Shown piece by piece: positions 35,377 to 44,725 of a DNA stretch of 64,000 nt (positions within the stretch are counted from its first letter, which is position 1; the number at the start of each line of letters is the position of its first letter). The stretch is from Modestobacter sp. DSM 44400 (GTDB taxonomy: Bacteria > Actinomycetota > Actinomycetes > Mycobacteriales > Geodermatophilaceae). Both the position numbers and the translations under genes were made by a program. The notes under the pieces were generated by a model. That model saw nothing but the letters and a program-made list of their open reading frames with translations. It was not told the origin of the DNA and ran no database searches. Location of the stretch: contig NZ_FNOZ01000001.1 in the NCBI RefSeq assembly GCF_900107175.1, forward strand, positions 310,001 to 374,000, given 5' to 3'.

Positions 35377-35805
35377 TCAGCTCAGCGCGACGACGGCCCG
35401 GGCGAGGGAGAGCACCTTCGCGCCGCCGCTGGTAACGGTGAGGTCGATCCGGACCCGGCCGTCCTCGAGCAGCGCGGCCACCCGGCCGCGGACGGTTAGC
35501 TCGGCGCCGGCGTCGTCGTCGGGGACGACGACCGGCCGGCTGAACCGGACCTGGTAGTCGACGACCGCCCCGGGGTCGCCGACCCAGGCGGTGACGGCGC
35601 GGGCGGCGAGGCCGGCGGTCAGCATCCCGTGGGCGATGACGCCGGGTAGGCCGACCTCGCGGGCGACCCGCTCGTTCCAGTGGATGACGTTGAAGTCCCT
35701 CGACGCGCCGGCGTAGCGGACCAGGTCGGCACGGGTGACGCGGGAGACCTGCTCGGGGAGCTCGGTGCCGACCGCAACGTCGGCCAGCCCGACGGCCGCA
35801 CTCAC
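35377..35805 (-). CDS. hadB: MaoC-family (3R)-hydroxyacyl-ACP dehydratase, HadB-like
   Basis: 142-residue hot-dog fold hydratase. The hydratase-2 signature YAGASRDFNVIHWNERVAREVGLPGVIAHGML contains the catalytic Asp and His. In M. tuberculosis HadB is the catalytic partner of HadA in FAS-II elongation. The GTG at 35805 overlaps the hadA stop (GTGA), indicating coupled translation and heterodimer assembly. Symbol is by synteny and motif; the organism need not make mycolates, so the acyl substrate is uncertain. Confidence 0.85.
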   Translation of the reverse strand: MSAAVGLADVAVGTELPEQVSRVTRADLVRYAGASRDFNVIHWNERVAREVGLPGVIAHGMLTAGLAARAVTAWVGDPGAVVDYQVRFSRPVVVPDDDAGAELTVRGRVAALLEDGRVRIDLTVTSGGAKVLSLARAVVALS

Positions 35806-36248
35806 GCCGCGCCCCGGGCGACCAGCATGGACGTGGTGGTGCACACCGGTTCGCCGTCCTCGGTGGCCAGGTCGACGCGCGTGGTGAGCATGTCGTTGCC
35901 GGCCACGCTGCGGACCGCGTCGATCGAGGCGGTGGCGACCAGCCGGTCGCCGGCCGTGATCGGGCGGTGGTGGGTGAAGCGCTGCTCGCCGTGCACCACC
36001 CGGCTGTAGTCGATGCCCACGTCGGGGTCATCGACTACCACGTCGCCGGCACCCAGGCTCAGCACGATGGCGAAGGTGGGCGGGGCGATCACGTCCGGGT
36101 GACCGGCCGCCCGCGCCGCGACCGGGTCGCGGTAGAGCGGGTCGGGGTCACCGAGCGCCGTGGCGAACTCGGCGATCTTCTCGCGGCCGACCTCGTACAC
36201 GGCAGAGGGCGGGTAGCTGCGCCCGACCAGTCCTGCGTCCAGCGCCAT
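35802..36248 (-). CDS. hadA: MaoC-family dehydratase subunit, HadA-like
   Basis: 148 residues; hot-dog fold without the catalytic Asp/His pair in the usual position, matching the N-terminal, non-catalytic type of subunit (HadA/HadC). Motifs: YPPSAVYEVGREKIAEFATALGDPDPLYRD, APPTFAIVLSL, GEQRFTHHRPITAGD. In actinobacteria it lies between rpmG and hadB as here. HadC is absent; the following gene is an M1 peptidase. Confidence 0.85.
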   Translation of the reverse strand: MALDAGLVGRSYPPSAVYEVGREKIAEFATALGDPDPLYRDPVAARAAGHPDVIAPPTFAIVLSLGAGDVVVDDPDVGIDYSRVVHGEQRFTHHRPITAGDRLVATASIDAVRSVAGNDMLTTRVDLATEDGEPVCTTTSMLVARGAA

Positions 36249-39468: not shown

Positions 39469-39543
39469 CGTCAGCCTGTCTGTAAGGGGGAGGCGTCAAC
39501 CGAAAGTAACAGTGCGCCGGACCCTTGCGGGGCAACTCACCCC

Positions 39544-39576
39544 GATGAGGCAGCCTTACATCGAGGCTGCCTCATC
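39544..39576 (-). terminator. Perfect 13-bp hairpin between the micropeptide gene and the EAL gene
   Basis: gatgaggcagcct / aggctgcctcatc with a 7-base loop, 17 bp past the micropeptide stop and 75 bp before the EAL start. It could end a separate micropeptide transcript or act as an attenuator for the EAL gene. Confidence 0.7.
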
Positions 39577-39592
39577 CACGAGGGAACGGAGG

Positions 39593-39679
39593 TCAGCGAC
39601 CCCACTTCCAGGTGCGGCCCCACTTCCAGGTGCTGCGCGCGGTGGCGGTGCGGGTGTCCAGAGCGATGGTGCGGGTCAT
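39593..39679 (-). CDS. 28-residue micropeptide with duplicated TWKWGR end
   Basis: ATG at 39679 preceded by GAGGAGG with 5-base spacing (positions 39685-39691), one of the best ribosome binding sites in the window. The peptide has a Thr/Arg/Ala-rich half and ends TWKWGRTWKWGR, an exact hexapeptide duplication coded by the direct DNA repeat ccccacttccaggtgc at about 39599-39632, then TGA. No signal peptide or helix-type membrane segment. A perfect hairpin follows. I do not recognise the family. It may be a free bioactive or regulatory peptide, a precursor for modification, or a Trp-sensing leader peptide; the sequence alone cannot decide. Confidence 0.6.
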   Translation of the reverse strand: MTRTIALDTRTATARSTWKWGRTWKWGR

Positions 39680-39810
39680 GACGCCTCCTCAGGCATGGTT
39701 CGACTGCGTGACGTGCGGCAGCCGCCCACGCGGGGGCAGAGCGTCGTCCGGCAACAGACCGCGTTCAGAAGAGTGCAGCCTGTCACCCACACGGTGCAAG
39801 CGCTGACACC

Positions 39811-43020: not shown

Positions 43021-43512
43021 ATGGCCGACGCGTCCTTCGACGTCGTGAGCAAGGTCGACCGCCAGGAGGTCGACAACGCCCTGAACCAGGCGGCCAAGGA
43101 GCTCTCGCAGCGCTTCGACTTCCGGGGCACCAACGCCAGCATCGCCTGGGCCGGCGAGGAGGGCGTGATGCTGCAGGCCGACACCGAGGAGCGGGTCGCC
43201 GCGGCGCTCGACGTCTTCAGGGAGAAGCTGGTCAAGCGCGGCATCTCGATGAAGGCGCTGGACGCCGACGAGCCGCAGGCCTCGGGCAAGACCTACAAGT
43301 TGTCGGCGCGGATCCAGCAGGGCATCGCCTCGGACAAGGCCAAGGAGATCGCCAAGGCCATCCGCGACGAGGGACCCAAAGGAGTGCAGGCCCAGATCCA
43401 GGGCGACCAGCTGCGAGTCAGCGGCAAGAAGCGGGACGACCTGCAGGCCGTGCAGCAGCTCCTCAAGAGCCGGGACTTCGAGATCGCCCTGCAGTTCGAC
43501 AACTACCGCTGA
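43021..43512 (+). CDS. yajQ: YajQ-family nucleotide/c-di-GMP-binding protein
   Basis: 163 residues; [37 protein letters not shown] and the C-terminal [30 protein letters not shown] are canonical. YajQ proteins fold as two ferredoxin-like domains; some (Xanthomonas) bind c-di-GMP and modulate transcription. AAGGAAGGA precedes the ATG. Its last 21 bases are duplicated at 48386-48406 and mark the left edge of the putative island. Confidence 0.95.
43492..43512 (+). repeat. Left direct repeat (att-like), 3' end of yajQ
   Basis: 21 bp covering the last six yajQ codons and the stop. The same sequence with one A-to-G change recurs at 48386-48406. Repeats at gene 3' ends that flank foreign-looking DNA are the classic footprint of site-specific integration. 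Confidence 0.7.
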
Positions 43513-43945: not shown

Positions 43946-44725
43946 TCAGCCCGAAGCGGCGCTGATGCCGACCTGTCCGAGCACGAGAGCAGCTACGGCG
44001 AAGACGAGCCAGGCGAACCAGCGCTTGAGTCGGCCGGTGTCCAGCCGTGCGCCGAGGCGCCCGGCGACGAGAGCGGCGACGACTGCGGCTGCCGTGAAGC
44101 CGACAGTGATGGGGACGTCGATGGGGGCGTCGCTGGCGTGGGCGGCGAATCCTGCTGCGGAGTTGACGGCCACGATCACAAGCGAGGTGCCGATGGCCGT
44201 GGTCATCGGGAGGCCGAGCGCGATCACCAGCACGGGGATGATCAAGAACCCGCCGCCGACGCCGAGCAGCCCGGTGAGGAACCCGACGACGAGTCCACCG
44301 GCCATGGTGCGGGGCAGGCAGCGGCGCCAGTTGACGGTGCCGTGGTCAGTGGCGCAGGCGGCGCCGGTGCTGGGCTTGTCCTGAAGCATCCGGACGCCGG
44401 CCGCGATCATCAGCAACGCGAAGACCGCAAGCACGACATCGTCGGGCAGCAGTCGGTTGACCCCGGCCCCGGCGAAGGCCGTCGCCACCCCGGCTGCGCC
44501 GAAGAGCAGTGCAATCCGCCAGGCGATCTGGCGGGCGCGCAGTCTGGGCAGCAGGGCGACGACGGCGGTGATGCCGACGACCAGCAGCGATGTGGCCACG
44601 GCCTGGGGCAGCGGCTGCCCGACGACGTAGACCAGGGCGGGCACGGCCAGGATCGACCCGCCCCCGCCGAGGAGTCCGACGAGGACGCCGATGACCAGGC
44701 CGAGGCAGATCGCTGCGGCGATCAC
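43946..44725 (-). CDS. TauE/SafE-family permease (sulfite/sulfoacetate exporter type)
   Basis: 259 residues with seven or eight membrane segments in two repeats, each starting with the family glycine motif: [26 protein letters not shown] and [26 protein letters not shown]. The family exports sulfite, sulfonates or related anions. The GTG start (44725) overlaps the stop of the upstream broken rhodanese gene (GTGA), and it lies in a sulfur cassette, so export of sulfite or thiosulfate produced by persulfide oxidation is a reasonable guess. Confidence 0.88.

Follow-up and report, generated by a model that had tools for sequence, protein, structure and literature searches.

The window analysed here, a stretch of 64,000 nucleotides from Modestobacter sp. 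DSM 44400, carries on its minus strand a micropeptide gene whose next gene downstream encodes a large membrane GGDEF-EAL protein, hereafter called the sensor (Table 1). An open reading frame of 28 codons ending in TGA had been reported for the micropeptide locus in an initial annotation that gave no strand; position and length are borne out, and the gene lies on the minus strand, the plus strand encoding unrelated residues. Its own GAGGAGG Shine-Dalgarno motif is likewise present, though 4 and not 5 nt from the ATG, and so is the perfect 13-bp hairpin after the gene, which has a loop of 7 and starts 16 and not 17 nt past the stop. The duplication of TWKWGR, described as exact, is exact at the protein level, whereas a single silent base (GGC versus GGT) sets the two 18-nt DNA units apart. 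In a register anchored on tryptophan the two units read STWKWG and RTWKWG.

Table 1. Features of the micropeptide locus and its partner gene (positions in the window)
Feature	Position	Strand	Remarks
Promoter-like pair TTGCAC - 18 nt - CACTCT	39770..39799	minus	putative; RNA start probably near 39762
Conserved 5' leader element (model R1)	39677..39762	minus	proposed helices GCGG/CCGC, GGCTGC/GCAGTC and Shine-Dalgarno hairpin
Shine-Dalgarno GAGGAGG	39684..39690	minus	within a small hairpin kept in most relatives
Micropeptide gene, 28 aa	39593..39679	minus	ATG 39679-39677, TGA 39595-39593; product MTRTIALDTRTATARSTWKWGRTWKWGR, then stop
Hexapeptide unit 1, TWKWGR	39614..39631	minus	
Hexapeptide unit 2, TWKWGR	39596..39613	minus	
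Terminator-like hairpin	39544..39576	minus	no U-run
CACTGTTA, conserved CRCTGYTA motif	39507..39514	minus	just 5' of the sensor gene; putative separate promoter/operator
Partner sensor gene, 845 residues	36931..39468	minus	multi-TM (about residues 16-240), GAF, degenerate GGDEF (EAGQF), EAL with main motifs

The micropeptide gene is real. A same-locus orthologue exists in all 22 Modestobacter genomes that have the downstream gene, in agreement with the earlier view that the peptide is far from noise, and these orthologues together with 295 silent versus 13 replacement differences between array units (see below) rule out a chance ORF or a slippage artefact. The proposal of a protein-coding micropeptide gene with its own Shine-Dalgarno sequence and hairpin is therefore supported.

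The micropeptide family in Geodermatophilaceae

The N-terminal part of the sensor was found in 102 of the 112 Geodermatophilaceae genomes searched, and the upstream DNA was read in all 102. A micropeptide ORF with a Shine-Dalgarno sequence precedes the sensor gene in each of the 101 readable cases (Modestobacter, Blastococcus, Geodermatophilus and others), the only unreadable one (G068) being cut by a contig end. As had been proposed, the peptide was compared among relatives: conservation at the amino acid level is strong, the repeat number varies, and the micropeptide of one genome of the same genus (G011) is 89% identical. The family members share a common build in which a start of 2 to 22 residues, mostly rich in Ser, Thr and Ala, is followed by 1 to 5 units. 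The unit is mostly R-x-x-[KR]-W-[GSTNA]; a few carry Ser or Met instead of Lys/Arg, and the third residue is A, V, S, N, W, F, I, T, H, Q, M, L, P or G. Counted from the anchoring tryptophans, 99 of 101 arrays have at least two Trp at a spacing of 6 (2 in 32 arrays, 3 in 43, 4 in 21 and 5 in 3); G030, which has the single unit RTVRWG only, stands outside the 101 arrays counted. A W-x-W core is found in the units of Modestobacter (except G015) and, outside this genus, in a single genome (G104); in the remaining relatives each unit contains one Trp. By eye, the Geodermatophilaceae peptides have no signal sequence or hydrophobic N-terminus.

No NCBIfam model matches the window peptide or one longer relative, and the earlier suggestion of an undescribed peptide family holds insofar as no family library or paper searched names it. 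One metagenomic genome (G093) has two sensor-peptide pairs (L159 and L214) with arrays of TARWGR and TAKWGR, and it may be a mixed bin. A public record named "UNVERIFIED_ORG: Bacillus sp. AZ43" (L399) holds a Blastococcus-type locus, and its name therefore looks wrong.

Uniform units within genomes, different units between genomes

The 99 arrays yield 193 adjacent unit pairs, of which 182 show no difference at any of the five non-Trp positions. Their codons comprise 657 identical ones, 295 silent differences and 13 replacement differences, compared to an expectation of 2.64 replacements per silent change if the same codons underwent random single changes. Eight of the 13 replacements fall on the opening residue of an array's first unit, where the choice of register is arbitrary, and a recount with an identity-based register (101 arrays) gives 299 silent and 8 replacement differences. 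The unit is identical in 94% of within-array pairs versus 1.2% of random between-genome pairs, and where the residue is the same, its codons agree in 66% of cases within arrays versus 51% between them. We read this combination of copies that are equal at the protein level, drifting silent sites and a unit that shifts between species as concerted evolution plus selection for sameness. At the level of sequence, these comparisons establish the micropeptides as a protein-coding family whose unit is nearly always uniform within a genome and changes between genomes. Several identical, species-specific units, a trait of multi-copy signal precursors, are present.

Leader, hairpin and promoter-like motifs

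A leader block that mostly begins with GCGGTC[CT]GT and reaches the ATG is conserved across the family. The model of this block (R1), built from 90 sequences, was used to search 249 genomes of the order and finds one place in each of the 39 matching family genomes and nothing convincing outside the family; weak order-level matches in G210 and G160, which come without such a peptide, were dropped. Ten family genomes without the sensor have weak R1 matches of at most 22.5 bits (six of these genomes are less than 90% complete and four are 92-98% complete). One genome of genus g6 (G122) has the peptide (L212) and no convincing R1 match, so that a missing element is no proof of a missing peptide. 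An exact 19-base scan of public genomes yields 70 stretches, and the few in unrelated taxa (for example Acidobacteriia, Tropicibacter, Frigoribacterium and Henriciella) are taken as chance.

The three proposed helices of the leader are paired in 88.3% of cells versus 35-59% when slid, and they include double changes such as U-A to A-U. Two of five measures are no better than shuffles, and we therefore speak of a modestly supported structured leader. RNAalifold applied to the whole leader recovers a lone 4-bp helix, so that a strongly structured riboswitch was rejected, and the window yields only 4 tRNAs and no riboswitch or leader family above the Rfam gathering cut-off. On the other side of the peptide gene, a perfect stem of at least 8 bp lies within 75 nt past the stop in 59 of 101 loci (mean longest stem 9.2 versus 5.3 in shuffled sequence), and 88 of 101 loci have the CRCTGYTA motif in the following 260 nt, versus 0 of 101 when shuffled. 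We infer that the peptide is made from a separate small transcript and that the sensor gene then has its own promoter. The heptamer GGGTGAC (39782-39788, minus strand) is kept before the peptide leader and GGGTGAG (39536-39542, minus strand) before the sensor gene; the two are perhaps a shared regulator site.

The sensor gene and its neighbourhood

A check of the neighbours, also proposed in the initial annotation, identifies the downstream membrane GGDEF-EAL gene as the constant partner of the micropeptide, a context that had been missed along with the analogous Trp-repeat tails of S8 subtilases described below. Pfam has no match, MASE domains included, to the multi-TM region of the window sensor, and MASE9 matches 1 of 36 sensor members at E=0.047. 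In 52 aligned sensors the GGDEF site reads E-x-x-[QR]-F in at least 47, which makes cyclase activity unlikely. The EAL motifs ETLVRW, DDFGTG and VAEGVED are kept in 50 of these 52 sensors, and the remaining two do not align there. Two relatives from outside the family (L349 and L350) have an intact GGDEF. An AlphaFold2 model of sensor residues 1-262 (from 36 sequences) is predicted to be all helical at a pLDDT of 85.5. Foldseek finds no significant match to this model in the PDB (E 0.45 or worse); the matches of highest probability (up to 0.93) include 4huq chain S, TmRibU, ThiT and CbiM, which are ECF transporter components, S-components among them.

The wider neighbourhood was compared in 20 larger contexts (18 from Modestobacter and 2 from other genera). 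The sensor gene and two small genes beyond it (35802-36248 and 35377-35844) follow the peptide in all 20, a gene at 43021-43512 precedes it in 19, and the gene at 43946-44725 is found in the window only. Located on the plus strand and 1.2-4.0 kb upstream of the peptide in those 19 contexts, the gene at 43021-43512 looks YajQ-like by eye. YajQ proteins bind c-di-GMP, and the neighbourhood may therefore hold more than one c-di-GMP function. A very divergent gene reaching from 39919 to about 41890 (minus strand) lies upstream in 30 of 52 loci, with a mean distance of 0.58 among the 26 used.

Possible co-evolution of the unit with the membrane domain of the sensor

Distances between units were compared to distances between sensor domains for the 52 loci with a complete peptide and sensor, using phylogeny-free permutation tests. 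Unit distance correlates with the distance of the TM domain at r 0.284, versus 0.076 for GAF, 0.023 for GGDEF and 0.038 for EAL. The partial correlation with the TM domain is 0.346 given EAL and 0.365 given GGDEF (permutation p 0.001), and within sequence clusters the correlation is 0.347 (p 0.001). Along the sensor, the correlation with the unit drops past residue 240, where the TM region ends, though a partial r of 0.30 is reached by an EAL window (residues 625-648) as well.

The TM domain is the fastest-varying part of the sensor, and genes next to it served as controls. Given each of two downstream neighbour genes, the partial correlation of unit and TM domain is 0.209 (n=45, p 0.013) and 0.235 (n=43, p 0.006), and given the equally fast upstream gene (distance 0.58 versus 0.54 for the TM domain) it is 0.262 (p 0.012, n=26). 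Conversely, the upstream gene given the TM domain reaches a partial correlation of 0.068 (p 0.25, n=26). These values point to a modest signal of co-evolution between unit and TM domain (partial r 0.21-0.37, p 0.001-0.013) in a family in which the adjacency of the two genes is constant.

Trp-repeat arrays at other sensor loci and on S8 subtilases

Outside the family, sensor loci were read for the best 30 of 39 order-level matches, and a clear Trp-repeat peptide lies upstream in 4 of these 30 and, by these criteria, in none of the other 26. One family has the repeats (DGGSWTFA)n and (DGNTWTFV)n, another has TPGALWGYTSGALWG, and the fourth carrier is a short protein with a hydrophobic start and the end DGAGWGVAPNNDGAGWG. 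Carriers placed before the sensor include the f9 and f7 micropeptides, with units DGGSWTFA and GALWGYTS. At 20 further sensor loci (19 of them class-level, some cut), a Trp array is found upstream in 10 and a Phe array in 1. The latter, (NGPSF)n of G326 (L289, NGPSFNGPSFNGPSFN, then stop), precedes a sensor of the same kind, and the aromatic residue thus need not be Trp.

Nine of these ten Trp arrays are the ends of long ORFs, for example as (GATWS)n, (GSQWS)n or (GLRWN)n, and the three long ORFs that were checked against Pfam match Peptidase_S8 (E 3e-26 to 2e-14). The tenth is a 52-residue, signal-peptide-like protein ending in RGTRWGSADRGTRWG (G344); by eye, short proteins of this signal-peptide-like kind precede the sensor in G344 and G038. 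The Pentapeptide repeats of Pfam reach at best 16.3 bits on the subtilase tails, under the cut-off of 27.

To avoid ascertainment, arrays were then picked without reference to the sensor. Searches by repeat pattern are noisy, with reverse-pattern controls equally high in many genomes, and 11 Trp arrays were chosen by eye among the matches listed, leaving out one (G349 C2) already known beside a sensor. Of the 16 sensor-independent loci followed in all, 2 are cut and 14 are readable. At 13 of the latter, simple hydropathy windows predict 4-8 TM helices for the open frame that comes next, taking the frame with most TM helices where frames overlap. The sole exception is L343, where no multi-TM gene adjoins the W-tail. 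Among the 13 multi-TM loci, a PAS- or GGDEF-type motif is present in nine and a second array-bearing subtilase intervenes in two. Trp-tail matches occur in 32 of 108 genomes of the family to which the window belongs; ten of these tail loci were examined, and one is cut while all nine others are followed by a frame with 5-9 TM helices that carries a V-[HY]-V-Q-x-x-R-[ED]-x-H-[TG]-F-S stretch. In total, a multi-TM gene comes next in 22 of 23 readable sensor-independent loci. In the set L312-L327, the following TM gene resembles known sensors by BLAST at L318 and L321 and does not at L317, L319 and the cut L320.

Some tails are very uniform (GLSWS, GSSWR, GAGWR), others are mixed (L317, L343, L345, L351, L437), and some reach about 20 units. 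Geodermatophilaceae S8 subtilases at a separate locus (L444-L453) have at least 13-14 Trp units that are mostly uniform (GLSWS, GVSWS, GMSWS, GLTWN), and a multi-TM gene comes next at each readable locus. Tandem array-bearing subtilases before one multi-TM gene are seen at L432/L438 and L437/L440 (G592 and G636), and the tandem pair of G592 has differing units, GATWS and GASWT.

The sequences establish that in other Actinomycetota arrays of analogous build form the C-terminal tails of S8 subtilases, and that the genes of these enzymes stand directly in front of multi-TM genes. Like the micropeptide array, these tails are built in tandem from a unit with one Trp, are often uniform, lie near the stop and have a multi-TM gene next; unlike it, they sit on a long enzyme and have a period of 5 instead of 6, and no family model found names them. 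What connects the two is a likeness in design and place only.

Discussion

We favour the view, at somewhat less than an even chance, that the array is a cognate partner, probably a multi-copy peptide ligand, of the sensor's membrane domain. The micropeptide, which is linked to the sensor gene and selected at the protein level, would then be the smallest, free-standing version of a tandem Trp-repeat partner that belongs to a membrane c-di-GMP protein, with ligand action, processing and export as putative steps. Each unit may be a short ligand recognised by the TM domain that co-evolves with it, and the array would be a multi-copy precursor or a multivalent ligand of a design comparable to yeast alpha-factor. 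Ligand binding might switch the c-di-GMP output, which in Geodermatophilaceae is probably EAL phosphodiesterase activity given the degenerate GGDEF and the seemingly intact EAL domain. The 5' leader may set the amount of peptide, and the hairpin would part the peptide gene from a sensor gene with its own promoter. Such a partnership would explain the matching copies and the joint change of unit and TM domain as well as the carriers, be they subtilases or bare micropeptides, and the adjoining multi-TM gene. Its chief weakness is that the Geodermatophilaceae peptide has no signal sequence and that a ligand acting from outside would need an exporter; the micropeptide may be exported by an unrecognised route or act from inside.

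Yeast alpha-factor and the ComX/Agr-type signals are peptide pheromone precursors, the former being multi-copy. Several identical short units in one precursor are shared with alpha-factor, and as with multi-copy and bacterial peptide signals the unit differs between species, the bacterial cases also having an adjoining receptor gene that appears to co-evolve. Unlike for these pheromones, no signal peptide or processing enzyme is recognised at the window locus, and the putative receptor is a GGDEF-EAL protein instead of a histidine kinase or GPCR; we claim no sequence relation.

The main rival is a docking or tether element, which we consider unlikely: the array would bind the membrane domain and hold a partner there, namely the subtilase in other taxa, and the micropeptide would act as a competitor or form part of the sensor as a structural subunit. 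This fits with the subtilase array staying on the enzyme as encoded, directly before a multi-TM gene, and with the degenerate GGDEF, and co-evolution with the TM domain fits it equally well; however, the micropeptide has no catalytic cargo and tails of up to about 20 units look excessive for one site. A known parallel is LapD, which holds the protease LapG. Both LapD and the sensor are membrane GGDEF-EAL proteins with a degenerate GGDEF, and the sensor is paired with a protease gene in related taxa, whereas its TM domain differs, its EAL motifs are kept, and any protease at the locus is an S8 subtilase (the W-tail loci have an S8 gene and a multi-TM gene, and no protease is recognised at the window locus). 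LapD is reported to control periplasmic proteolysis (PMC3032553). Next among the rivals, and rather improbable in our judgement, is a cis-acting leader peptide, in which the array, as it is translated, would act with the 5' leader and hairpin to control transcription or translation of the sensor gene. The peptide lies upstream and on the same strand as the sensor in the loci read, is flanked by the 5' element and hairpin and has no signal peptide, all as expected for a leader. Against this, codon-based attenuation does not call for identical residues within arrays at freely changing silent sites, an arrest peptide should stay the same in sequence from species to species while the array changes between genomes, the conserved promoter-like motif lies past the hairpin, and array divergence follows the sensor's TM domain. 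The transcription-attenuator leader peptide trpL is similar as a short Trp-containing ORF with its own Shine-Dalgarno sequence before a hairpin and a longer gene, but here the Trp codons are spaced by 6, the repeat copies are held identical in residues and the downstream gene is GGDEF-EAL and not Trp-related; with no run of regulatory codons and no amino acid biosynthesis gene downstream, a Trp attenuator leader is not supported.

That the product is a cationic Trp peptide acting on membrane or wall, as an antimicrobial or an adhesive, and is co-regulated with the c-di-GMP enzyme by chance, strikes us as very improbable: the Geodermatophilaceae units are indeed rich in Arg, Lys and Trp and free of acidic residues, but those of f9 and f7 are not cationic, the linkage to one sensor gene is constant and the copies must match. 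A RiPP precursor that a radical-SAM enzyme cross-links, as with darobactin (hinted at in the initial annotation on account of W-x-W) or the triceptides, appears highly improbable. W-[GSTNA]-R and, in Modestobacter, W-K-W-G-R resemble known cross-linked cores, the W-x-W-x-[KR] core of Modestobacter being the trait shared with such precursors, and some SPASM protein is encoded in 18 of 23 Modestobacter genomes. Yet SPASM is absent from three peptide-bearing genomes (G009, G012 and G020, 95-99% complete) and no SPASM enzyme is conserved; the sole match in the window genome lies on another contig than the peptide (C166 versus C104), most arrays have one Trp per unit, and many stop right after W-x with the third residue missing. 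As W-x-W is moreover nearly confined to Modestobacter and not conserved in the family, the darobactin-like reading is unsupported and was discarded.

Returning to the cognate partner, a bolder form of it, which we put forward tentatively and rate as possible but doubtful, is that tandem arrays of one short Trp unit, as micropeptides or tails of secreted subtilases, constitute a gene-encoded peptide language for c-di-GMP in Actinomycetota. They would act as species-specific multi-copy ligands, read through an ECF-S-like and so far undescribed membrane domain to which GAF-GGDEF-EAL is fused; ligand and receptor would co-evolve, and concerted evolution would keep the array uniform. The open full-text literature searched contains nothing on the micropeptide family, the Trp tails or such a pairing, which is no proof of absence.

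For many membrane c-di-GMP proteins the ligands are unknown. Putative sensory domains such as MASE1 are described in one review as being without discernible physiological purpose (PMC8846402). A uniform unit per genome that changes freely between genomes while silent sites drift represents an unusually clean case of selection for copy sameness, and our analysis indicates a widespread two-gene arrangement that no family library searched names. What lies beside the gene of this c-di-GMP membrane protein is a large and apparently undescribed Trp-repeat family, a placement suggestive of a gene-encoded peptide as the partner of this protein. If such a cognate partner does adjoin, one such class of receptors would be directly testable with synthetic hexapeptides.
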